A stretch of DNA of 27,814 nt from a virus. Of the stretch, positions 11,347-26,085 are shown in pieces. Where the stretch lies: positions 1 through 27,814 of IMG/VR virus record IMGVR_UViG_3300018082_000023; one strand, written 5' to 3'. The first letter of the stretch is position 1. Every line of letters starts with the position of its first letter. Under the pieces are notes generated by a model. It was not told the DNA's origin, searched no databases, and saw only the letters and a program-made list of their open reading frames with translations. The position numbers were made by a program, and so were the translations under genes.

Positions 11347-12411
11347 TTATGATCCTTGTAATGCAAAAAAGTTAAACAGGCTCGTACCAAACAATGAGCC
11401 AGTATAAACTCTTACCACGCAAGAAGTTCCACCCGTTTTGGTTGGATAAGCTCGAAACGGTAAGCCAATATCCACAATAGACTGTCCATCTGTTACAGCA
11501 GGATTTGCTGGACGATAAACAAAATTATGATAAATAGCTTCTATTCGATTTCCAACAGCCTCATGAAAAGTGAAGGTAGCAGATTGTGAAGTTCCCTCCG
11601 CAAGTATGTTTAAATCACGGTTAAACTCCATACCTAAATTACCCTCAGCCATCCAATGCTGTGCTAGTGGAAATCTATTCCACCCCGTCTTACCAATTCT
11701 TGATCTTTCACCAACATTATTATTAAAAGTTAATGAAAAATCATCAATATCATAATCTTCACCTGTAACGGTTAAAGTACCATGATTATCAACCAATTGG
11801 GTTTTTTCTGAGAAACTACCCAATCCACTAGGCGGAGGACTAAAACCAGATGGAAAATTAAATCTACTACCATTAAGAAACTTCATGACGGCACGAGCTT
11901 TTAAGTCCTCGTTATACCGACAAGTCAATTCTAGTAAATCAACTATTCCATTAAAGAAGCGATAACCATTTGCTCCTGTTCCACCACCTATTAGTGTATT
12001 ACCCAAGAAAACATCAACATTAAGTGAATATGGATGCGTTCCCCAGTTTGAACCATTTGTAGTAAATTTGAGATTAGAACCAACTCTCGTAAACTCATAA
12101 GTTCCAACAGTAGGAGTGGCTGTTGTACCAAATACTGTTCCTATTTGGAAGTGAGCTAACATCATTGGTAAAATATCATCAACTCTCGGTTGCCAAACTA
12201 TTTCGCACGTAGGGTAAAAGTTTGTAACTGAGTATGTACTTCCAGATGATTCTCTTGCACCAGTAAGTTTACCATCTCTCTCTCTTGGTTGAGCACCAAA
12301 ATCAGGAGTAACACTATCAGCAAATAAATATATTCCTCTATGACCCACCGTACCCTGACTTCCCCAACTTGGAGCGGCTTCAATTCTTACTATTGCCTCA
12401 TAACCTACCAT
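11347..12411 (-). CDS. Major tail tube protein (putative)
   Basis: The 354-residue protein occupies the major tail protein position before the chaperone pair. It is rich in Gly, Thr, Asn and beta segments. Features include ATPTVGTYEFTRVGSNLKFT (about 98-117), GYRFFNGIVDLLELTCRYNE (about 147-166) and DYDIDDFSLTFNNNVGERSR, the last with the 'sxxlxxxnNv' phrase seen in tube proteins that carry duplicated beta domains. QSATFTFHEAVGNRIEAIYH appears in the second half. It is longer than simple tube proteins (about 150-250 aa), so it may contain two tandem tube domains or a surface domain. No membrane segment or catalytic motif is seen. Confidence 0.65.
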   Translation of the reverse strand: MVGYEAIVRIEAAPSWGSQGTVGHRGIYLFADSVTPDFGAQPRERDGKLTGARESSGSTYSVTNFYPTCEIVWQPRVDDILPMMLAHFQIGTVFGTTATPTVGTYEFTRVGSNLKFTTNGSNWGTHPYSLNVDVFLGNTLIGGGTGANGYRFFNGIVDLLELTCRYNEDLKARAVMKFLNGSRFNFPSGFSPPPSGLGSFSEKTQLVDNHGTLTVTGEDYDIDDFSLTFNNNVGERSRIGKTGWNRFPLAQHWMAEGNLGMEFNRDLNILAEGTSQSATFTFHEAVGNRIEAIYHNFVYRPANPAVTDGQSIVDIGLPFRAYPTKTGGTSCVVRVYTGSLFGTSLFNFFALQGS

Positions 12412-12906: not shown

Positions 12907-13689
12907 TCAGCCACGAGCAAATTGTTTAAATCGTGTATCAAATCCAGAACGTCTAACATCTTGTGGGATACATTCTATTTTCCACTCATCATTTAAAGCC
13001 AATTGAGTTTCAGTTACAGATACTGGAAAAGTCCAGCGAATCTTTAATCCAAATTCAATATCAATCCAGTCAGTACCAGTATCATTTTTCGTATCCTCAA
13101 ATGAATAACCATCATCAAGAGAAAGCTGAAATTTAGCTTGTCCAACCTTTGTACCAACAGCTATATCTGTAATTTTAAAATGATAAATCTTCTTATAATC
13201 CGAACCTCTATACCATCCAGAATCCCAATTAGAATAAAAGCCAGCCTTAGATAAAGTTCCAGTTACTCTTTGTGGATAACCTATTCCAGTATTTGTAGTA
13301 TCTGTATCAAGAGTTATTTTACCTGAAACTATATCATCAAATATAGCTTTTCCTCTTGTAGCAAAATCCATCATCCATTGTGGTAATTCGTTATTAAATT
13401 CTCTAGAATGTCTGGCTTTTAACTTTGTATAAATTGTATCGCAGGCATTCCATTCAATAAGAAAAGGGTGATAACTACCATTAGACGGATTAGTACCAAC
13501 AGGAACTATTGGTATTCGAGTATACGAATCTAAAATATTATTGATTTTATTATAACTAGCATCAATATCATTTTGCCAAGTGGATGTAGCTATAATTATA
13601 GAACCAGTAATTAATACTCGGCTACCGTAGTACCACGTGCCAAAATTCTCAAAATATCGTTCAAAATCTGATAGTGTAACGTATGACAT
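12907..13689 (-). CDS. Putative head-tail connector / head completion protein with an extra beta domain
   Basis: The 260-residue protein lies in the position of the head-tail adaptor, before the tail terminator-like and tail tube genes. The N-terminal half (1-120) is helical, with DIDASYNKINNILDSYTRIP (41-60) and a PFLIEWNACDTIYTKLKARH segment (74-93). This resembles connector proteins of the gp36/DUF1320 style, which begin with an Asp-rich helix and IxxYLxxRYxxP. Residues about 140-245 form an appended beta domain (TDIAVGTKVGQAKFQLSLDD ... WIDIEFGLKIRWTFP) not found in minimal connectors. That part may be displayed on the neck. Function is inferred mostly from gene order. Confidence 0.6.
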   Translation of the reverse strand: MSYVTLSDFERYFENFGTWYYGSRVLITGSIIIATSTWQNDIDASYNKINNILDSYTRIPIVPVGTNPSNGSYHPFLIEWNACDTIYTKLKARHSREFNNELPQWMMDFATRGKAIFDDIVSGKITLDTDTTNTGIGYPQRVTGTLSKAGFYSNWDSGWYRGSDYKKIYHFKITDIAVGTKVGQAKFQLSLDDGYSFEDTKNDTGTDWIDIEFGLKIRWTFPVSVTETQLALNDEWKIECIPQDVRRSGFDTRFKQFARG

Positions 13690-13867: not shown

Positions 13868-14056
13868 TCAAAAAACCTTTGTAAATAAATCCATAAAATC
13901 TTTTATTTCTTTAATATGATGAAAAGCTAATCCATACACCCAAATATGAAATATAATGACAATAGCTGACTTCTTTGGATGTTTTCTTATAATACAATAA
14001 AATTCTTTAATTATTGTAAAAACGGGTGAATCAAATATTTCCTTCGGAGTTTTCAA
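13868..14056 (-). CDS. Small single-span membrane protein, TTG start (holin-like candidate)
   Basis: The 62-residue product has a basic N-terminal half (FYCIIRKHPKKSA, about 19-31) followed by one hydrophobic stretch, AIVIIFHIWVYGLAF (31-45), and a charged C-terminal tail. By the positive-inside rule the N-terminus should be cytoplasmic. The TTG start overlaps the TGA of the glycosyltransferase (TTGA), and AAGGAG lies 12 nt upstream. A holin, antiholin or membrane anchor for the preceding enzymes are all possible. No sequence signature decides between them. It is not next to the endolysin. Confidence 0.6.
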   Translation of the reverse strand: MKTPKEIFDSPVFTIIKEFYCIIRKHPKKSAIVIIFHIWVYGLAFHHIKEIKDFMDLFTKVF

Positions 14057-14820
14057 TTAACTATTAACTCCTTCTCAAGATCAAAGAAATTCTTTCCATT
14101 AATCCATTTGTCTTGAAATTTAATTGAATCACTTTGTAAAATCTTTATTTGTTCTGGGGATGGATTTTGCGATTGTCCAATTTTATGTGATATAACAAAG
14201 GAGGGCTCGTAAATAACTTTAAAACCAGCATTACGAGCACGGTAGCAAAAGTCAGAATCAGAAAAATAGTTAAAGAACCTATTATCAAGAAGCCCAACAG
14301 TTTCAAATACTTCTCGTCGAATAAGAACCGAAGCAAATGTAACCCATTTCTCATAAGTTCTTTTATTTAATTGTTTTAATTTTACAGAACCAGATTTATG
14401 TATTCCAGCGGGATAACATTCAATCGTACCACCATGATGAATTAAATCTGAATTATCAAGAGAAAGAATTTTAAAACCAATTACACCAATATTACTCAAG
14501 TCAAGCAATCCATTAGTAAGAGTTGGTAGTAATTTTTCAATAGATTCTAAAGTTTCCTTTGGAACAACAGTATCGTTATTAAGAAGCCAAATCCAATCAA
14601 ATTTATTTAATCCACTACCATTTAAAAATTCAACAATTAATTGATTATTTCCAGCGGTAAATCCTAAATTATTTTTATTACAATTAAGAATACTTTCTTC
14701 AAAAACTGCTCTATCCATCCCAACTTCAAATCGTTTCACCCCTCCGTCATAAAGAGACTTTAAACAATCGTCAAGTAATTTTTGTTCACCATAATGTACT
14801 ATACAAATTCCAACTTTCAT
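14053..14820 (-). CDS. Glycosyltransferase family 2 (rhamnosyltransferase/WbbL-like)
   Basis: This 255-residue GT-A enzyme has all the expected family landmarks. It begins KVGICIVHYGEQKLLDDCLK (2-21) and contains NLGFTAGNN (51-59), a motif of WbbL-type enzymes. The metal-binding NNDT follows in WIWLLNNDTVVPKE (76-89). The acceptor/base region is WVTFASVLIRREVFETVGLL (159-178) and RFFNYFSDSDFCYRARNAGF (181-200), where SDSD corresponds to the common EDxD. H212 (FVISHKIG) is also typical. It is about 40-50 residues shorter than most full-length members. It has no membrane anchor. It ends the sugar cassette, and its TGA overlaps the TTG start of the next small gene. Confidence 0.87.
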   Translation of the reverse strand: MKVGICIVHYGEQKLLDDCLKSLYDGGVKRFEVGMDRAVFEESILNCNKNNLGFTAGNNQLIVEFLNGSGLNKFDWIWLLNNDTVVPKETLESIEKLLPTLTNGLLDLSNIGVIGFKILSLDNSDLIHHGGTIECYPAGIHKSGSVKLKQLNKRTYEKWVTFASVLIRREVFETVGLLDNRFFNYFSDSDFCYRARNAGFKVIYEPSFVISHKIGQSQNPSPEQIKILQSDSIKFQDKWINGKNFFDLEKELIVN

Positions 14821-15368
14821 AATTCTCTTACTCCAGTATTTATATTTAAAAGTTTAATTCGTTTTAAGTCGCTATTTGCCAATCTTTTAACCTTCATAAA
14901 TGTTCCATCGCCACTTGGATCATTCATTAGAATATAAAAATAATAATTCTGAAATATGTCTACCATATCTAAAATTTCATATCTCCAATGATCAGACGGA
15001 AAATCATGTTTACCAGACTTTGAATTTCTTGTTGTTAAAAGTAGCAATCCATCTTCTTTTAACGTATAATGAATATTTAATAAAGCAAAATACCAATATT
15101 CAATATGTTCCATCATTTCGGTGGTTATTATTATATCAAATGACCTCATGCCAAATCTTGACATTAACCCGTATACAGTACATATCTCATCAACACATGG
15201 TCCGTCTTTAATGTCTACACCAATATACTCAGATGGATTTAATTTTAAAATATCTTCTCTTACTGAGCCGTTTACATTAAAAGAACCAACTTCTAAAACT
15301 CGTTTTCCCTTAACTTCAGATTCAGTAAGATTATTTTTAACAAAATCTATACATTGAATATTACACAT
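14817..15368 (-). CDS. SAM-dependent methyltransferase
   Basis: This 183-residue class I methyltransferase is compact, with motif I VLEVGSFNVNGS (24-35), the acidic loop YIGVDIKDGP (48-57), the post-I/II region FDIIITTEMMEHIEYWYF (77-94) and TLKEDGLLLLTTR (102-114). The segment SKSGKHDFPSDHWRY (116-130) is shared by methyltransferases near sugar-biosynthesis genes, where it probably forms part of the acceptor site. No DNA-methylase catalytic motif (DPPY/NPPY) is seen, so a DNA modification role is unlikely. The stop overlaps the next gene by 4 nt, showing that it is part of the same translational unit as the glycosyltransferases. Confidence 0.82.
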   Translation of the reverse strand: MCNIQCIDFVKNNLTESEVKGKRVLEVGSFNVNGSVREDILKLNPSEYIGVDIKDGPCVDEICTVYGLMSRFGMRSFDIIITTEMMEHIEYWYFALLNIHYTLKEDGLLLLTTRNSKSGKHDFPSDHWRYEILDMVDIFQNYYFYILMNDPSGDGTFMKVKRLANSDLKRIKLLNINTGVREL

Positions 15369-15370
15369 TT

Positions 15371-16567
15371 TTATCTCCAGGCTCTCAATCTAAACTCATC
15401 TAAATTATTACACGCTAAAACCTCAACCTTAGAAAATTTTAGATCGTATAAAACTTCAGTTAATGTTTCGGAAGTATAACCAGCTTTATGTACCAATTCT
15501 TCATTAGTATTTTGACCATATAATCTTTCAATCGCAGAAGCACAATTTGAAAATGAATTAATTCCAGACAGATAATCAGAACAAGCCAGACTCAAATCTG
15601 GACAATAAATATCCACAAAACCTTCTGGTTTTAATATACGATAAATTTCACCAAGTATCTTTCTACCAATCTCAAAACGAAAATGCTCTAAAGCATGTTT
15701 AAATAAAATCTCAGAAAATGTATTATCTGGAAATGTCAATTTACCATCTGATATATCAAATTCATCTGGTTTTCCTTTATCAATATTTATATAACCTTCT
15801 TTAACGTCATCGCCACAACATAAATTAAGTTTATCACAATCAATTATCTCAATATCATCTATACTTTTTTCTCTTTGCGATAATCTCTGAAAATGATAAA
15901 CCTTTTTATTAATCTTAATAAACTGAATAGAATCATCTTGTTTTAATTTATCAAAGAGAACTATATCATTTGGAAATGGAAATGATGGATAAGTAGGATA
16001 TTGACCACTTTCATTAAATAAATTCTTTGGAAAAATTACAGGCATATACCAACCAATCTTATTTATCCAAAAATGTAATTCATCTGACTGAGATCTTGCA
16101 AATTCATTAAATTCAGATTCTTTAAATAATTTTAATTCAGTTCCAAATTCTCGTTTAATGTTTCTTTCATTCACATCCACATAGCCAGGTTCTACAACAT
16201 CAAATGTAATTACCATTTTTTCAGTATTATACGCTTCACTAATATATTTTAATAAAATATCCCATTCTGGTGGAACATACATATCATCATTAATTAATAA
16301 AACATGATCATTATCATTACGTGAAAAAGAAACTCCATAATTAAACATTCCGTAAACATCCAACTTAGATGAATTTTGTATAATCCACAAAGCGACTTTA
16401 TCTCCAAATTCTAACTGAAGATTATCACAAATCTTTTTATATTCTAAATCATCTCCATCCCATATTACAACTATTTCATATAAATATCTAGAATGTCTAA
16501 TTAAATTTCTAACACAAAATTCCAATATTTCTTCGTTTTTAGAGGGAATTATAGCTGAATATCTCAT
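15371..16567 (-). CDS. Bifunctional protein: GT2-type glycosyltransferase fused to a SAM methyltransferase
   Basis: The 398-residue product has two enzyme domains. Residues 1 to about 230 form a GT-A fold: YSAIIPSKNEEILEFCVRNL (3-22), EIVVIWDGDD (31-40), HVLLINDDMYVPPEWD (88-103) with the metal-binding NDD, and a C-terminal YPSFPFPNDIVLFDKL. Residues about 245-398 form a class I SAM methyltransferase: motif I LNLCCGDD (247-254), acidic D263 after GYINI, and TFPDNTFSEILFKHALEHF (278-296). ILGEIYRILKPEGFVDIY follows (304-321), as in type-11 methyltransferases. The sugar added and then methylated is unknown, but coupled transfer and O-methylation is the simplest reading. The gene overlaps the GT9 gene at TAATG and precedes a second methyltransferase by 2 nt. 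Confidence 0.85.
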   Translation of the reverse strand: MRYSAIIPSKNEEILEFCVRNLIRHSRYLYEIVVIWDGDDLEYKKICDNLQLEFGDKVALWIIQNSSKLDVYGMFNYGVSFSRNDNDHVLLINDDMYVPPEWDILLKYISEAYNTEKMVITFDVVEPGYVDVNERNIKREFGTELKLFKESEFNEFARSQSDELHFWINKIGWYMPVIFPKNLFNESGQYPTYPSFPFPNDIVLFDKLKQDDSIQFIKINKKVYHFQRLSQREKSIDDIEIIDCDKLNLCCGDDVKEGYINIDKGKPDEFDISDGKLTFPDNTFSEILFKHALEHFRFEIGRKILGEIYRILKPEGFVDIYCPDLSLACSDYLSGINSFSNCASAIERLYGQNTNEELVHKAGYTSETLTEVLYDLKFSKVEVLACNNLDEFRLRAWR

Positions 16568-17838
16568 TAAAGTACCTCCATCAATTCAGTTGATGTAGAA
16601 TTAATTTTATTTGGTAATAATATCATATCCAATTTCTCTAGAATCATATCGCTGGTAATTGATTTTACACAAGCTGCTTCTACCGCACTTAAAGCCTGAA
16701 CTCGTTGTCTGGCAGCATTAAGTTCAGCCTGTATAGCTCCTGGAATCGAATTAAATTTTCTACAAACCTCCACAATATTCATTCCTTTATCATGACAATC
16801 TATAATTTGTTTTTCACGTTCAGTTAATTGTTTTAAAGCATTTTCTTTTTCAATCGGACAAAAAGCATCAAGCGTAAAACATGGATGACAATAAACATTT
16901 GTTTCAAGTGGAAAAGAATGAGAATAATATTTTTCTCTAGTCCAGGCTGGCACGGTTGTATAAATACCAATTGTTGGTATATCTAAAGCCGCCGCTACAT
17001 GACTCATCCCAGAATCAGCAGTAATAAAACAATCCATTTGACTTATTATTGCGGCTGAGATTAAAAGCGGATCAAATTCTGTATCATCTGGTTTAAACTC
17101 ATCAGGAACTAACCTCCCCTCTCCATACTTAGAAAGAACTTTCCAGATACCATTCATAAAGATAACTACTAAATCATTTGGATATTTCTCATGTATAATC
17201 TTTGGCAAATCACCAGCCTTATACCAAGAACGTATTAAAGTAGACGCTTGTAATTGAATACCAATTATATTACAAATTCTTGCTCCACCAGCTTTTTTAT
17301 CACCAATAGACGTTGTCAATATCCATTCAAGATATTTTGGCTCAATAACTATTTCAGGTTTTTTATTCTCATCAGAAACTTTCGTATAATCAATATTTGC
17401 CCAAGCTAAACTTAAATCAATCCAATTCATATAATTTGAATTGAGCGTATTTCTCCAACCACCTGTCTTATTTACTCCTGAACGATTATCCTCAACTGAA
17501 TATTTATAGTCAAATACTTCATCATAATTTTCTTTTAAAATCTCAACAGAAATATAATGCTCATTTTTATCTTTTACACAATCAATACCATTAACTCTTT
17601 CTATTCGTAAGGATTGATTAATAAATGGTAAACCATCAAATAATTTATGAACATTTCCAGTTGGTGAACCAGACATATAATCTACTTTATATCCTTGATT
17701 ATATAATGTTCTGGCTACTGGAGTTAAGATTAAACAATCTCCCACCCCGCCAACCCTAAGTATTAATGCCTTTTTTATATCTGATGATTTAATTGTAACT
17801 AATTTTAAATTATCAGATACATTAATCAATTCGTCCAT
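16567..17838 (-). CDS. Glycosyltransferase family 9 (heptosyltransferase-type) with an HTH-like insertion
   Basis: The 423-residue protein is a two-Rossmann GT-B enzyme. The N-terminal domain opens with ALILRVGGVGDCLILTPVAR (24-43), the GT9 hallmark 'xxxRxGxxGDxxxxtP'. The C-terminal domain has DCFITADSGMSHVAAALDIP (269-288), the 'TxDSGxxHxAxAL' donor-binding motif, then TIGIYTTVPAWTREKYY. The cysteines C317, C320, C327 and C390 correspond to the Cys-rich end of many GT9 proteins, which finish 'CMxxIxxxxVxxxI' (here ACVKSITSDMILEKL). Between C327 and C390 lies a helical stretch, about 335-383 (LKQLTEREKQIIDCHDKGMN...), that looks like a sigma-region-4 or LuxR-type helix-turn-helix. The acceptor sugar is unknown. 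The stop overlaps the next start (TAATG). Confidence 0.85.
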   Translation of the reverse strand: MDELINVSDNLKLVTIKSSDIKKALILRVGGVGDCLILTPVARTLYNQGYKVDYMSGSPTGNVHKLFDGLPFINQSLRIERVNGIDCVKDKNEHYISVEILKENYDEVFDYKYSVEDNRSGVNKTGGWRNTLNSNYMNWIDLSLAWANIDYTKVSDENKKPEIVIEPKYLEWILTTSIGDKKAGGARICNIIGIQLQASTLIRSWYKAGDLPKIIHEKYPNDLVVIFMNGIWKVLSKYGEGRLVPDEFKPDDTEFDPLLISAAIISQMDCFITADSGMSHVAAALDIPTIGIYTTVPAWTREKYYSHSFPLETNVYCHPCFTLDAFCPIEKENALKQLTEREKQIIDCHDKGMNIVEVCRKFNSIPGAIQAELNAARQRVQALSAVEAACVKSITSDMILEKLDMILLPNKINSTSTELMEVL

Positions 17839-17842
17839 ATTA

Positions 17843-18556
17843 TCAATTTCTTAAATAACGTTGAAGTTCTGGAATTTTTATTACAATATCCTTTTTAACT
17901 TCCACCCCAAATTCATTTAATACACTACGAATAAAGTTTTTCTCGGTTTGTAATGCTTCTGGCGATATATTCTTACCACGTCTTAAATGAGTATTAATCA
18001 CATCAACCAATTCCCTATTGTGATCAAACCAAATATTAGAGTAAATTTGTTTTTGAGTATTAAATCTTGGAAATTGATGAGCTTCTTGAGTCCAAACTAC
18101 AGTTGGAACTAATTGACCACCGACATTAACAAATTTTCTCCATAACCGTGGATGGGGATCATCCTGAAGAAACTTTTTTAAATCAACACAAATTCCATTC
18201 GATCTAATAAGATTCCTAAATAAAAACCAAGTCAATTCAAATTGATACTCAAATATTTGTTTAAATTTCTCAAGTTCTTCAGGTAATACTATTTCGTCAG
18301 AATCCATCGCTAAAATATATTCCCTGCCCGCCAACATATAGCAATATTGGCGGTCAAAATCCGCATTTCCTTTTGAAGTAGTATGAATATATAAATCAGC
18401 AATTTCTTTAAACTGCTTTTGATTTTCTATATCGGTACTTTGATCAACAATTACCACTTCATCAATTATGGATTTAACTGAATTAATAGCATTTATAGCC
18501 AAGTGATAATCATTACTTACCACCATACATAAAGAAATTGATTTATCATTTATCAT
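17843..18556 (-). CDS. Glycosyltransferase family 2-like (WaaE/KdtX-type) protein
   Basis: The 237-residue enzyme begins with a GT-A nucleotide-sugar fold: SLCMVVSND (8-16), INSVKSIIDEVVIVDQSTD (24-42) and the metal-binding DxD, here DSD (85-87) in YILAMDSDEIVLPEEL. This order is typical of GT2 enzymes of the WaaE type, where KGNADFDRQY (62-71) takes the place of the 'FxxxRN' motif. DDPHPRLWRK (132-141) is also typical. It has no membrane anchor, so it should act in the cytoplasm, moving a sugar from an activated donor to an unknown acceptor. It is the first gene of the sugar cassette after the capsid gene. Four nucleotides separate it from the next gene. Confidence 0.82.
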   Translation of the reverse strand: MINDKSISLCMVVSNDYHLAINAINSVKSIIDEVVIVDQSTDIENQKQFKEIADLYIHTTSKGNADFDRQYCYMLAGREYILAMDSDEIVLPEELEKFKQIFEYQFELTWFLFRNLIRSNGICVDLKKFLQDDPHPRLWRKFVNVGGQLVPTVVWTQEAHQFPRFNTQKQIYSNIWFDHNRELVDVINTHLRRGKNISPEALQTEKNFIRSVLNEFGVEVKKDIVIKIPELQRYLRN

Positions 18557-18610: not shown

Positions 18611-19597
18611 TTAGCCTAACGCATTATAATCATAACCAGCACTCTTGCATCTAATCATAATAAGTGCAGTACCTTTATTTCTCCAAATTGGAGCTTGACC
18701 ACGATAGAATTTAGTTTTCCAAACTTGTAATCTATTCGCATCATTGCCATAATCTGGATAGTAGTACACTCTTGGAGGCATACCAAAACCATATCCAGCA
18801 GCATTAGCAGCATACGCTAAAGCCGTTCCTTTGGAAAGTAATTCTTCAGTCTCTACAAAGATAAAGCCCATGTACTCACCTAGAATTTGATAACGAATAC
18901 CTTGAACATCGTTATATAATTCACGGTTTTGAAATACTGAACCTTGTTTTAAATTACGAAAAGTTTCAGAGTTCGCAACCATTACATATTGTTTTCGGTC
19001 AGTTACTGGACCAGCTAAACTCTTTGTAAATGAATCATAAGCCATAGCTATACCACCCATACCTAATTCACCATAGGCGGTTGCCTGTAATTTTCTATTA
19101 GTACCAAGTAAACCATTATATGAACCAGCAGCAACCACTTCAATCGTAAATGGAGTATTAATGCTAATATCATAATCTAACCAGTTTACCATTCTACCAA
19201 TATGATTTCCAAGAGTACGAACTATCTCACTTCTAACATCTAGGTTTGTTATCCAATCGCCTATTGTTTCATAGCCGACACCAGTTCCATACTCTCGCAT
19301 TATCATTGACACACTATCGGTTTCTTGAGAGCCAATACCAATAGCAGTACCAGATGTTAACGCTATTACAGTAGCCGGAGCACCCCAATTTTTAAATATT
19401 GGAGTTGTAAAAGTACCACCTTTACCTATACCGTAAGCATCTTTTGATTGATTAAACCATCTACTAAATATCAATTCACCAAATGCTTGCCGCATGATCG
19501 TTCCTGCAAGATGCTTTACTTCAAACCCATCACCCTCAATATTGGTACGGGTATAAGTAAACATATTCCCATAACCTTCAGCAGGAAGAAAAGCCAT
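18611..19597 (-). CDS. Major capsid protein (HK97-fold inferred)
   Basis: This 328-residue protein follows the scaffold-like gene and has a strong ribosome binding site (GAGGT, 5 nt before ATG), as expected for the most abundant virion protein. Several segments fit a HK97-type capsid protein: EVKHLAGTIMRQAFGELIFS near the start, then SQETDSVSMIMREYGTGVGY. Later come NRKLQATAYGELGMGGIAMA and DRKQYVMVANSETFRNLKQG. The C-terminal part has GEYMGFIFVETEELLSKGTA and a Tyr-rich VYYYPDYGND loop. No N-terminal protease or delta domain is apparent, so the separate scaffold gene fits. I did not recognise a specific subfamily with certainty. An N4 gp56-like or P22-like relation is possible. Confidence 0.8.
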   Translation of the reverse strand: MAFLPAEGYGNMFTYTRTNIEGDGFEVKHLAGTIMRQAFGELIFSRWFNQSKDAYGIGKGGTFTTPIFKNWGAPATVIALTSGTAIGIGSQETDSVSMIMREYGTGVGYETIGDWITNLDVRSEIVRTLGNHIGRMVNWLDYDISINTPFTIEVVAAGSYNGLLGTNRKLQATAYGELGMGGIAMAYDSFTKSLAGPVTDRKQYVMVANSETFRNLKQGSVFQNRELYNDVQGIRYQILGEYMGFIFVETEELLSKGTALAYAANAAGYGFGMPPRVYYYPDYGNDANRLQVWKTKFYRGQAPIWRNKGTALIMIRCKSAGYDYNALG

Positions 19598-20348: not shown

Positions 20349-20501
20349 CTAATAAACTTTTTTCTTACGAGAAATTTTATTCTTATAAGCTCTATTTCTT
20401 ATCGAAGCCGAAATTAACGCCTTTCGGTGCGATTTAGCCACACCTACTGTTTTTCCAGTGGCTTTTTCAACTATTCGTAGTCCCGATACTCGAACTGGCA
20501 A
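20349..20501 (-). CDS. Small basic hypothetical protein, TTG start, overlapping the cold-shock gene
   Basis: This 50-residue ORF starts with TTG at 20501, and GAGG stands 6 nt upstream. It overlaps the 3' end of the cold-shock gene by 35 nt in another frame. The product is strongly basic: 16 Lys/Arg in 50 residues, with segments VEKATGKTVGVAKSHRKAL and SASIRNRAYKNKISRKKKVY. It fills what would otherwise be a gap before the scaffold gene. The 'xATGKxVGxAKSxxKAxxSAxIRNR' style resembles short basic proteins in phage head modules, but I cannot name a family. Nucleic acid binding is suggested by charge only. Confidence 0.6.
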   Translation of the reverse strand: MPVRVSGLRIVEKATGKTVGVAKSHRKALISASIRNRAYKNKISRKKKVY

Positions 20502-20769
20502 GAATTACCTCAACTTTCGGCTTTATAATTTTATCTTCACGTATATTTACCGCCATGAAACCTTTATTTGTGTTAGCCACATCGAACAAAACTATCTGTC
20601 CACGAGACAATGTTTTAAACGGATCTTGATTATTTATTCTAGAAAAATGTACAAATATACTTTTAGTAAAATCTGAACATTCTAAAAAACCATAACCGAG
20701 TCTATCACTAAACCAAAGAACCGTACCTGTATATACTGTATTTTCTAGTTTCTGTATTTTTTGTACCAT
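20467..20769 (-). CDS. Cold-shock-domain (CspA-like) nucleic-acid-binding protein
   Basis: The 100-residue product carries one cold shock domain at about residues 12-78, an OB-fold that binds single-stranded RNA or DNA. The pattern is clear: GTVLWFSDRLGYGFLE (15-30, RNP1 region, usually GxVKWFxxxKGFGFI). Next is SIFVHFSRIN (37-46, RNP2, usually VFVHFSAI), then LSRGQIVLFDVANTNKGFMA (54-73). The core aromatics are retained (W19, F20, Y26, F28, F39, H41, F42). The usual Lys before the RNP1 Gly is Leu24, which may weaken binding. A 20-residue C-terminal extension, basic then Ser/Thr-rich, follows the domain. It sits between portal and scaffold genes, an unusual place. An RNA chaperone acting on late transcripts, or binding DNA during packaging, are both inferences. 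Confidence 0.88.
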   Translation of the reverse strand: MVQKIQKLENTVYTGTVLWFSDRLGYGFLECSDFTKSIFVHFSRINNQDPFKTLSRGQIVLFDVANTNKGFMAVNIREDKIIKPKVEVILASSSIGTTNS

Positions 20770-22364: not shown

Positions 22365-24044
22365 TTAAAAAAATGTCCTAATTAATCGTATAACCGCTGG
22401 TTTTTGTTTCAACATTAAAGCCGTCAACATATATAAAATCGCATGATAATAATGATCAGGATTTTTGGTTCTTGGATAAAAAGTAATCCAATCACCCTTT
22501 TCATTTTGTTTCATTGCTTTTATTGGAGCTTTTAAATGCTCATGAAAATCTCGAACTCTTTTTATATCAATTGGAAGTAATAATTCCTTTTCACATATTA
22601 CATCAGAAACAATTTGCATCATTAAAGTTCTATGAATATGAACCACTTGTTCATCATGATGAATTGCTATCTTATCAGATTTTGTTTCCAAATACTGCAT
22701 ATAAAACGCCAACCATACACCTTCTCGTTCCTCTTGAAAATCAACACCCTCATTTTTATCTGGATTAGCATCAATTACGACCGTTTTTGCCGACATATCA
22801 TCGCAATAAAGTTTAAACTCATCCATACTATCTAGTTCAGCCGCCGAAATAATTTTTATTTTATCATTCTCATCCCTTATACCAGTTACAGCATGAATTT
22901 TATTTCCCTTATCTGCTCCAATTACACATGAAAGTTTATTTTGAATTAAAATTAAATGATTACCACGAGCATTATTTATTATTTCATCAGTAAGTCTTGA
23001 ACCCTTCGGCTCATAGGGTAATCCAAGATCAGAATTATATACTTCCTGTTCTTTAAGTGGATTTTTTATATCAACAGCAATTTGATTTAAGTTAGATGTT
23101 GGAAAAAATAACTTACTTACATGATAGCCATGACAATAATTAGAATTAGCGGTTATTTGTGCAACCCACTCAGCATTTGCCGATAATCTATTTAATGGCT
23201 CCTTACAATAACGACAAATTACTTGAATATCTGGCTGATAATTAGATAATTTATTCAGGGATTGGTTTACATCAACCGTGTTCTCACCCCATATAAGATT
23301 TTCATTCCATTTACCGCAGCACTCACATTTGATAGTCCAGACTCTTTGATCACTTCCCCTTTCTCCCTGCGCTTCAGAACCATAGTAAAAAAGCGATATT
23401 CCGGTACCATGAAACGATGGAGTGGAAAAGTAACGGCGAATTGGATTTTTTGCTGCACCAAGTCTTTTCGTAAGCGTGTAAAGCGTACCTTCTTCATAAG
23501 CATCTATTTCATCAGCTATTAATATACTTGCATCCACCGTAATAATTTGTCGTCTTTTTTGAACCCCACGAAAATATATCTGATTATTATTTAATGAAAA
23601 CTTTTTTAAGTTCAATGATCCGGTTACGGCTTTTTGCAATTCCTCATTAGTTAATACAGCATTTCTAGTTCTAGCATCAACAAATTGCTGCATTTGTTCA
23701 CCAGCAGGCAACGTATATAAAATATTACCTTTATGATGACAAGCACGCCAAATCGCAAAAGCCATCATTAACTCAGACATTCTGCATTGAGCACCTTTTA
23801 CGGTAACTTGAAATGGGTGATCATCTCTAGCAATCTCCACTAAACATGGAGCATCTTTAAATGAAAACTTTTCACCCTGATGTTCACCTGAAGAAATTCT
23901 CCATCTCTCAAGAAGAAATATAAAAAAATCTTCTCTAAGTAAAGTCTCAAGATGTTTGAGGTATTTCTTGTGTAATTGAGTCTCCTCCACTCTCAGACTC
24001 TGATGTACGCTCTCTATATTTACTTGGGGTATTAGGTTTTCCAC
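22365..24044 (-). CDS. terL: Terminase large subunit (phage lambda GpA-like ATPase/nuclease)
   Basis: This motor and nuclease pumps DNA into the prohead through the portal. Up to 559 residues are encoded. The ATPase half has a degenerate Walker A (KGAQCRMSE, 83-91) and a Walker B (ILIADEID, 174-181). A zinc ribbon follows (C240/C243 and C277/C280), as in GpA-type enzymes. The nuclease half shows D378 (VIGADKG), D425 (VIDANPD) and D530/H531 (NPDHYYHAILY). The start is uncertain: the GTG at 24044 gives a 98-nt overlap with the previous gene, and the GTG at 23990 shortens the overlap to 44 nt. Neither has a clear ribosome binding site. The missing Gly and Lys of a classical P-loop is a known GpA-family deviation. 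Confidence 0.93.
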   Translation of the reverse strand: MENLIPQVNIESVHQSLRVEETQLHKKYLKHLETLLREDFFIFLLERWRISSGEHQGEKFSFKDAPCLVEIARDDHPFQVTVKGAQCRMSELMMAFAIWRACHHKGNILYTLPAGEQMQQFVDARTRNAVLTNEELQKAVTGSLNLKKFSLNNNQIYFRGVQKRRQIITVDASILIADEIDAYEEGTLYTLTKRLGAAKNPIRRYFSTPSFHGTGISLFYYGSEAQGERGSDQRVWTIKCECCGKWNENLIWGENTVDVNQSLNKLSNYQPDIQVICRYCKEPLNRLSANAEWVAQITANSNYCHGYHVSKLFFPTSNLNQIAVDIKNPLKEQEVYNSDLGLPYEPKGSRLTDEIINNARGNHLILIQNKLSCVIGADKGNKIHAVTGIRDENDKIKIISAAELDSMDEFKLYCDDMSAKTVVIDANPDKNEGVDFQEEREGVWLAFYMQYLETKSDKIAIHHDEQVVHIHRTLMMQIVSDVICEKELLLPIDIKRVRDFHEHLKAPIKAMKQNEKGDWITFYPRTKNPDHYYHAILYMLTALMLKQKPAVIRLIRTFF

Positions 24045-25011
24045 CTCTTATACCATACTTATGGAAAAAATGATTTATTTTTAATCCAACTTCTTCATCA
24101 AATTCAGTACAGCCAGCTAATAATGCTATCTTCCTTATGGTAATATCCTCATCCCTACAATTCTTTAACCATATCACATTATCAATGAGTGTCTTATTAA
24201 GAAACTTTGGACATTTACGAATCTGCCCAGACTGAATATGACATTGAGTTCCACGATTATTTTCAGTTATTTTATCATTCCAACAAACATGAATCTCTCC
24301 CATTTTCTCACCAAAAGCACAATTTTCATAATCTGTAAATTCCATCTTCTGTGAAATATGTTCTGGCAATTGTCCAGCAAACCTATCATCCAATAACTCA
24401 GCTAATGCTTCCTTAGCTTCTTCTTTTGAAGAAAGAGTTTTTGGTAAATTCTCATCATCAGGTAACGGTCTCCTTATCATATCACCAAGAGATTTACTAC
24501 CCATCTCAACGTTCAATCTGTCAAGAGTACGAATATATAAATTAATTACCTTTAATCCATCATCATCAATTCCAAATTTAAGAGATTGTACTGAAACATT
24601 TCTAAGCATTGTTGCCAATTCATTATATCTCGAAATACGATATAATTTATCTGAAAACTTATAAATACTACCAATTCGTAATGTTGCTTCGATATAAATT
24701 TCATCAATTATTTCAGCATACTTTTTACGATAATAAGATAAAGTTTTAATATTAACCGGGTCTAAACCTTTTTCTTTGCGTCTATGATTAAGAATTACAA
24801 TAATTTCTTTTTCGGTTAATCTCAACGCTAAACCAACAACTATTGTAGTTTTATCATCAAACTCAATTTTATCACCCGGCTTTAAATCACTATATTTATT
24901 AACACCATCACCAAGTTTATGCCCAAAATAGTTTTGAATAATGGATTCAAGCTCTTCAGAAATTTCCTCCATTTGAACTTCCTGTTTAACGGATTGAGGA
25001 ATTAAACTCAT
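23947..25011 (-). CDS. Putative terminase small subunit / DNA-binding packaging protein
   Basis: This 354-residue protein lies directly before the large terminase, the usual site of the small subunit that recognises phage DNA. Residues 66-105 (LTEKEIIVILNHRRKEKGLD followed by a basic helix with YYRKKY) look like a helix-turn-helix. A small beta region at 40-62 (DLKPGDKIEFDDKTTIVVGL) precedes it. Four cysteines at 231, 243, 257 and 267 form a possible metal-binding cluster, which is not typical of small terminases. The C-terminal 25 residues are Ser/Glu/Thr-rich and encoded in DNA shared with the next gene. The protein is longer than most small terminases (about 100-250 aa), so it could be a fusion or another regulator. 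The assignment rests mainly on position. Confidence 0.5.
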   Translation of the reverse strand: MSLIPQSVKQEVQMEEISEELESIIQNYFGHKLGDGVNKYSDLKPGDKIEFDDKTTIVVGLALRLTEKEIIVILNHRRKEKGLDPVNIKTLSYYRKKYAEIIDEIYIEATLRIGSIYKFSDKLYRISRYNELATMLRNVSVQSLKFGIDDDGLKVINLYIRTLDRLNVEMGSKSLGDMIRRPLPDDENLPKTLSSKEEAKEALAELLDDRFAGQLPEHISQKMEFTDYENCAFGEKMGEIHVCWNDKITENNRGTQCHIQSGQIRKCPKFLNKTLIDNVIWLKNCRDEDITIRKIALLAGCTEFDEEVGLKINHFFHKYGIRGGKPNTPSKYRERTSESESGGDSITQEIPQTS

Positions 25012-25715
25012 ATAGCCCCAACTATATCGAATGGCTTATAATCTTGCTCAGAAAATGAAAGCTTAGACAATGCTTTTTTACTGGCTGGACCAAATATACC
25101 ATCAACTACCAAGTTCTCACCTTCATTAAATATTTTATTTATTGTTTCTTGCATTAATCTCGAAACTGAATATCTAAATTGATCTAAATTAATTTTCATT
25201 CCCGGACAAACTTTTCTTAGCACTATACTATCATTTTGATCTTTGAAGAAACCAGTCCCAAACAATTCCCTATGACCAAACAACTTATCTGGAGTAAGTT
25301 TAAATTTAAGCAATAAAAAAGTAGCAATTTTGATAGCGTTAGTATATACTCTAGGATCAACAGCTATATTTAATTTATCATCTCTAGTTGGATTATAATC
25401 AATAGAAAATGCGACTGAATCGGAATTATGACCAGCGGCATGATAAGTTATATTGTTTTCACCAACCATGTGATAAATCTGATTACTAACCACATAATAA
25501 TGATAGCTGCAACAAGGAAATCTACGCTCAGAAACAAAGAAATCTGATAATTTCTCAGGAGTCCAATTAGAAGCATCGGTACAATGAAAAACCACTCGTT
25601 TAATAATTCCTTCTTTTGAACTTTCCCTAGTTAAAACCTTCTTTTCTGGGTTAAATTTTGTAAACTCTCGAAAATCACAGTATAAATCTCTAAGTAATTC
25701 AACTTTTAGTCCCAT
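25008..25715 (-). CDS. Endolysin: N-acetylmuramoyl-L-alanine amidase (Amidase_2/T7 lysozyme type) with peptidoglycan-binding motif
   Basis: This zinc amidase should cut the bond between N-acetylmuramic acid and L-Ala of the stem peptide during lysis. Numbering from the chosen start (235 aa), the metal ligands fit H44 (VVFHCTDAS), H148 (LFGHREL) and C170 (KVCPG). K168 lies two residues before the Cys as in T7 lysozyme, and the YHYYV motif at 71-75 supplies the active-site Tyr. A short C-terminal PG_binding_1-like unit ends in VDGIFGPASKKAL (204-216). I chose the ATG at 25715 because GAGGA stands 7 nt upstream. The alternative TTG at 25754 adds 13 residues but has no ribosome binding site. It lacks a signal peptide, so a holin is expected. 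The stop overlaps the next gene by 4 nt. Confidence 0.92.
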   Translation of the reverse strand: MGLKVELLRDLYCDFREFTKFNPEKKVLTRESSKEGIIKRVVFHCTDASNWTPEKLSDFFVSERRFPCCSYHYYVVSNQIYHMVGENNITYHAAGHNSDSVAFSIDYNPTRDDKLNIAVDPRVYTNAIKIATFLLLKFKLTPDKLFGHRELFGTGFFKDQNDSIVLRKVCPGMKINLDQFRYSVSRLMQETINKIFNEGENLVVDGIFGPASKKALSKLSFSEQDYKPFDIVGAI

Positions 25716-26085
25716 ACTCAAGTCCTCTGGTAATTTCAAATATTCCTGAACCAATTGATTTTAAATTATGCGTTCCACCCCAAAATGTCCCAGATGGATT
25801 TAGAAAAGTATCATACACATATTCGGCAAATGGTATATCCAAATCAGACGAGGAAAATGTAATAGAGAATTTACCATAAGAACCATTAGTAATACTTATT
25901 CCACTATCTATTTTTTTAGAAATTATAATTTGTGAATCTAATTGTTCCCATCTATCCCTAACTACAAAAAATATACCATATCCAGTAATATTCTTAACTC
26001 CAATATCATCGCCTAACGTATTATAATCTCTAACAGTACCAAAAATAGTACCAAATGACTGATACCCAAATGAAATCTTATTCAT
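25699..26085 (-). CDS. Putative beta-sandwich tail/baseplate protein
   Basis: This 128-residue protein has the look of small phage baseplate or tail structural proteins of the BppU N-terminal type. It has a GDDIGVKNITGYGIFFVVRD segment (about 25-44), then a KIDSGISITNGSYGKFSITFS block (58-78). A SSSDLDIPFAEYVYDTF block (78-94) and a closing GSGIFEITRGLEYG strand follow. In such proteins, 'TGYxIxFxV', 'sG.v.i.ls', 'ipxgxYxYDv' and 'Gxf.I' follow one another in this order. The match is by eye only. It begins at a TAATG overlap with the previous gene and its end overlaps the endolysin start by 17 nt. Confidence 0.6.
   Translation of the reverse strand: MNKISFGYQSFGTIFGTVRDYNTLGDDIGVKNITGYGIFFVVRDRWEQLDSQIIISKKIDSGISITNGSYGKFSITFSSSDLDIPFAEYVYDTFLNPSGTFWGGTHNLKSIGSGIFEITRGLEYGTKS

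Follow-up and report, generated by a model that had tools for sequence, protein, structure and literature searches.

A conserved glycosyltransferase and methyltransferase cassette beside the probable capsid gene of a small phage lineage: a putative pathway for glycosylation of a virion protein

The present study describes a compact cassette of five genes coding for glycosyltransferases and methyltransferases, which lies in the head operon of an uncultivated phage. The cassette is ancestral to the small lineage to which this phage belongs, and its genes are present at the same position in every contig of the lineage that reaches the locus (n=3). It could function as a late-expressed, soluble pathway that glycosylates a structural protein of the phage, and the probability of this putative role is judged to be about two in three.

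Organization of the cassette

The window, that is the whole stretch of DNA that was analysed, is the 27,814-base IMG/VR record IMGVR_UViG_3300018082_000023. It is probably a genome fragment, as its relatives span 45-46 kb. Nearly all of its genes are carried on the minus strand, and its products include a GpA-type terminase (22365-24044), an Amidase_2 lysin (25008-25754), a cold-shock domain protein (20467-20769) and a tape-measure-like protein of 1405 aa. The cold-shock gene lies between the portal and scaffold-like genes, and one at the matching place after the portal gene was observed in all three relatives (loci L002, L003 and L004).

The cassette consists of five intact open reading frames on the minus strand, running from 18556 down to 14053. 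In the order of transcription these are g1, a GT2 glycosyltransferase of 237 aa (17843..18556; Pfam PF00535, 3e-4, with the homologue in relative G002 scoring 3.5e-13 as GT2); g2, a heptosyltransferase-like GT9 glycosyltransferase of 423 aa (16567..17838; PF01075, 1.3e-9); g3, a GT2 domain fused to a SAM methyltransferase, 398 aa (15371..16567; PF00535, 1.2e-9, and PF08241, 1.6e-5); g4, a SAM-dependent methyltransferase of 183 aa (14817..15368; PF13489, 3.5e-8, and phrog_32762, 4e-18); and g5, a GT2-like glycosyltransferase of 255 aa (14053..14820; PF13641, 8e-6). An earlier reading of the same DNA, made from the letters only (the sequence-only reading), had described three GT2-like domains, one GT9 domain and two methyltransferase domains in one tightly packed run, none of them with a membrane anchor. 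Pfam gave the same six domains and the packing is indeed tight, as the gaps from g1 through g5 are 4, -1, 2 and -4 bp. No convincing transmembrane segment was found in g1-g5 either; the highest Kyte-Doolittle mean over 19 residues was 1.65, and this maximum falls in a Rossmann-like strand at the N-terminus of the GT9 protein. Scans for promoters and terminators in the cassette region gave no sites clearly exceeding chance, and solved-structure searches with g2, g3 and g5 returned no useful match. It was also observed that g2 contains an insert of about 50 residues (16654-16851) between its C-terminal cysteine motifs, which is helical and HTH-like, weakly resembles Sigma70_r4 (E 0.02) or other HTH domains, and is kept in G002.

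On the 5' side, 54 bp separate g1 from the gene for the probable major capsid protein (18611..19597, minus strand), which has a weak match to phrog_1357 (E 0.002-0.006) and follows the scaffold-like gene; it is conserved in G002 and in a second relative, G001. The AlphaFold model of the capsid protein has a pLDDT of 29. On the 3' side a probable head-tail connector (12907..13689, minus strand), assigned by synteny, comes after the cassette, and in G002 and G001 it directly follows g5. Further on lies the gene for the probable major tail tube protein (11347..12411, minus strand; PF18906 Phage_tube_2, E 1.7e-4). The placement of the cassette between these two flanking genes, as read earlier, thus stands, but their names are to be taken less firmly, the identity of the capsid protein being a weak one drawn from phrog_1357 and synteny, and that of the connectors from synteny.

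Conservation of the cassette

A search of 2.9 million viral contigs with the capsid protein, terminase, g1, g2 and g5 returned few contigs, the same ones each time; g2 alone also matched, weakly, an unrelated contig of 195 kb. No prophage was found with the terminase profile among 84,980 bacterial and archaeal genomes, and the only bacterial match to the g5 profile, a weak one, was in a Bacteroidia MAG. The two large relatives are G002 (IMG/VR 3300025030_000187, 45 kb, with the cassette at locus L002) and G001 (IMG/VR 3300025087_000713, 46 kb), while a third one of 7.9 kb stops short of the capsid gene. Both large relatives have a D12-class adenine-specific DNA methyltransferase gene that overlaps a DnaB-like helicase gene (L012, 15030-16019; L015, 5272-6273).

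The earlier expectation that relatives would carry the same cassette at the same position is borne out. G002 has the genes for terminase, portal, cold-shock protein, scaffold-like protein, capsid, g1-g5, connectors and tail tube in the order of the window. The single contig of G001 closes with the capsid gene, genes for two small proteins that resemble each other, g1 and the first codons of g2; at its other end it opens with the ribosome site of g5, then g5 and the connector. The G001 assembly is therefore broken inside the cassette, and its visible parts share the flanks of the window. No exact shared overlap of 10-60 bases was found between the two ends of the contig, and there may be population variation at this break, which lies between the start of g2 (end of L004) and the start of g5 (start of L014). 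The two small proteins of G001, of 105 and 102 aa (L004, 15212-15877, between the capsid gene and g1), are perhaps head decoration proteins; the pair is absent from the window and G002.

Comparison of the window with G002 revealed amino acid identities of 59% for terminase, 50% for portal, 65% for capsid, 47% and 55% for the connectors and 44% for the tail tube protein. In the cassette the corresponding values are 49% for g1 (the same as to the G001 homologue), 51% for g2, 46% for g3, in which the fusion of GT2 and methyltransferase is retained, 39% for g4 and 70% for g5, which at 61% to G001 is the most conserved among the proteins compared. The range of 39-70% for the cassette is close to the 43-65% of the virion genes, and recurrence of the set at such identities in G002 means that the cassette is not a product of chance. 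In addition, the GC3 of the cassette tracks each genome (for g5 it is 16, 25 and 34% in the three). Since the cassette has diverged like the virion genes and follows the GC3 of its genome, it must have been kept for a long time. This pattern of sequence divergence fits vertical inheritance with maintained function rather than recent insertion, and the term "inserted", which had been used for the cassette, is misleading.

Relationship of g1 to protein glycosyltransferases

A profile built from three g1 sequences hit GmaR at the top (2.3e-11), followed by SunS (7e-6) and TarP (1e-5). When the AF2 model of g1 (pLDDT 71) was compared with solved structures, SunS and ThuS ranked first by Foldseek, and VIA-align placed ThuS first (Z 13.8, rmsd 3.9, 189 residues) with WrtF tied (Z 13.1, rmsd 3.4, 162 residues). 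Thus the closest solved relatives of g1 are GmaR and SunS by profile and ThuS and SunS by fold. GmaR glycosylates flagellin (PMC9638930). SunS and ThuS are named in their structure entries as S-glycosyltransferases of glycocin peptides, and SunS also carries the label SPbeta prophage-derived. It should be noted here that g1 is shorter than all three, that identity over the fold is 14-16%, and that the likeness to protein and peptide transferases is mainly one of the GT-A core, for which other GT2 enzymes match as well, the glycan-acting WrtF and TarP scoring nearly equal. On the basis of this profile and the predicted fold, g1 is a plausible candidate for an initiating transferase that would act directly on protein.

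Proposed function and alternative explanations

The Pfam scan covered the window, itself probably a fragment, and, outside the tail module, the larger ORFs of both G001 and G002. Within this scope no nucleotide-sugar synthesis gene, no lipid-carrier transferase or flippase and no base-hypermodification gene was found; the scanned ORFs of the relatives hold replication and recombination genes instead. The statement that sugar-nucleotide synthesis genes are missing from the window thus holds for the ORFs scanned in the two relatives of 45-46 kb too, and the sugar donors would therefore come from the host. From the genes and domains, from their conserved order and position, and from the fact that the scanned ORFs gave neither donor nor lipid-carrier genes, we infer an acceptor, an order of steps, sugars, a linkage and a benefit as follows. 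In the cytoplasm of the host, g1 would probably attach the first sugar to a freshly synthesized virion protein, at Ser/Thr or another side chain. The GT9 enzyme g2 and the GT2 domains of g3 and g5 could then lengthen the glycan with nucleotide sugars of the host, and the C-terminal domain of g3 together with g4 would methylate the sugar chain. The acceptor would most likely be an abundant virion protein, such as the capsid or tail tube subunit, and the modification might shield the particle, stabilize it or help it to adhere to surfaces. The C-terminus of the tail tube protein is conserved and rich in T, S and G, and Ser/Thr make up 18-23% of its last 60 residues against 5-17% in the capsid protein, a weak hint from composition at the tail tube as candidate acceptor. 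An S-linked glycan on a conserved cysteine of the capsid protein was also considered and was dropped, as 0 cysteines are conserved across the three capsid proteins. Of the earlier proposal of an O-methylated glycan on a virion protein such as the capsid protein, the best-supported part is that a virion protein is glycosylated and that methylation takes place as well, while the capsid as the specific target and the O-methyl chemistry are more tentative. A more complete scheme can be drawn, in which a SunS/GmaR-like start would lead to a four-sugar, doubly methylated and possibly heptose-containing glycan on a virion protein, by way of the insert-bearing GT9 enzyme and the GT2-methyltransferase fusion; as a full phage pathway this is tentative and somewhat unlikely.

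Phage glycosyltransferases often remodel host surface glycans, as in gtr clusters, and GT9 along with rhamnosyltransferase-like GT2 enzymes is typical of surface polysaccharide pathways. It could be possible, then, that the cassette remodels surface glycans late in infection and blocks superinfection or the re-adsorption of progeny to debris. A small membrane-protein-like ORF after g5 in the window would agree with this; it codes for 62 aa with one hydrophobic segment (13868..14056, minus strand), has a TTG start and a strong ribosome site, AAGGAG, and overlaps g5 by 4 nt. However, no counterpart of this ORF was found in G001 or G002, the five enzymes are without membrane segments, and the cassette and the ORFs scanned in the relatives yielded neither an undecaprenyl-phosphate transferase nor a flippase, the gtr hallmarks GtrA (flippase) and GtrB (bactoprenol transferase) included. 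Moreover, wherever a contig reaches the locus, the cassette lies within the head operon. The block to superinfection, which the sequence-only reading had offered as its alternative, is weakened by the missing lipid-carrier functions and by the head-operon site, and it is considered unlikely.

The enzymes could also act on some other soluble molecule, for instance a lysis protein, a tail fibre of the phage or metabolites of the host, with the head-operon position only setting a late timing. An acceptor cannot be named from position alone, and Streptomyces phage Zuko has a glycosyltransferase-methyltransferase-glycosyltransferase set elsewhere in its genome; yet placement near capsid genes recurs in unrelated phages, and such a target appears rather improbable. 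The idea that hypermodified phage DNA is the substrate of both the glycosyltransferases and the methyltransferases is very improbable. To our knowledge GT9 is not a family of DNA transferases, and the cassette lies in the head module, away from replication genes. Neither the window nor the ORFs scanned in the relatives yielded a base hydroxymethylase, a thymidylate-synthase homologue or a TET-like gene. In favour of DNA as the target, the relatives do have an adenine-specific DNA methyltransferase gene, and modified bases can be targets of phage glycosyltransferases according to Pyle et al. 2024, as cited in PMC12619734. Glycosylation of a virion protein remains the preferred role of the cassette.

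Comparison with known phages

The capsid and GT9 proteins of the window had no match in annotated phages. Relatives of g4 were found in Pontimonas phage phiPsal1, Synechococcus phage S-CBS4, podovirus ctKR88, Streptomyces phages Zuko and KimJongPhill, and one unannotated huge phage, and the g4 relative directly adjoins glycosyltransferase genes in all four genomes inspected (phiPsal1, S-CBS4, ctKR88 and Zuko). In phiPsal1, genes 010-012 code for a glycosyltransferase, a g4-like methyltransferase and a GT2 enzyme exactly between the major capsid and neck proteins, as in the window; unlike in the window, the set comprises three genes, its methyltransferase is read from the opposite strand and the first glycosyltransferase is of the group 1 type. 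The podovirus ctKR88 (MW202524) likewise has several glycosyltransferases and two methyltransferases, one of them related to g4, between its major capsid and head-completion genes, but its cassette is larger and the glycosyltransferase genes differ. In S-CBS4, gp014-gp016 comprise two glycosyltransferases and a g4-like methyltransferase within the head module, although the set sits between portal and protease, whereas in Zuko the set with the g4 relative is outside the head module. Such adjoining g4-type methyltransferases can serve as a marker for finding cassettes of this kind.

The kind of system is already known, and its closest described counterpart is that of the cluster O mycobacteriophage Corndog, in which gp35-gp38 in the virion operon code for an O-methyltransferase, two glycosyltransferases and a GlcNAc-transferase-like product; the authors saw peptides of the capsid protein only poorly and for this reason proposed that the capsid is modified (PMC4351075). 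The methyltransferase that accompanies the Corndog glycosyltransferases has its equivalent in the C-terminal domain of g3 and in g4. The Corndog set differs in its location between portal and protease and in having four genes, and neither GT9 nor a glycosyltransferase-methyltransferase fusion is reported for it. Freeman et al. 2023, as cited in PMC12619734, described mycobacteriophage capsid and tail tube subunits that are glycosylated at their C-termini. Unrelated phages place genes for glycosyltransferases and methyltransferases next to the capsid gene; to this pattern the window adds a well-conserved case from a sparsely sampled lineage, and virion glycosylation thus becomes testable beyond the mycobacteriophages.
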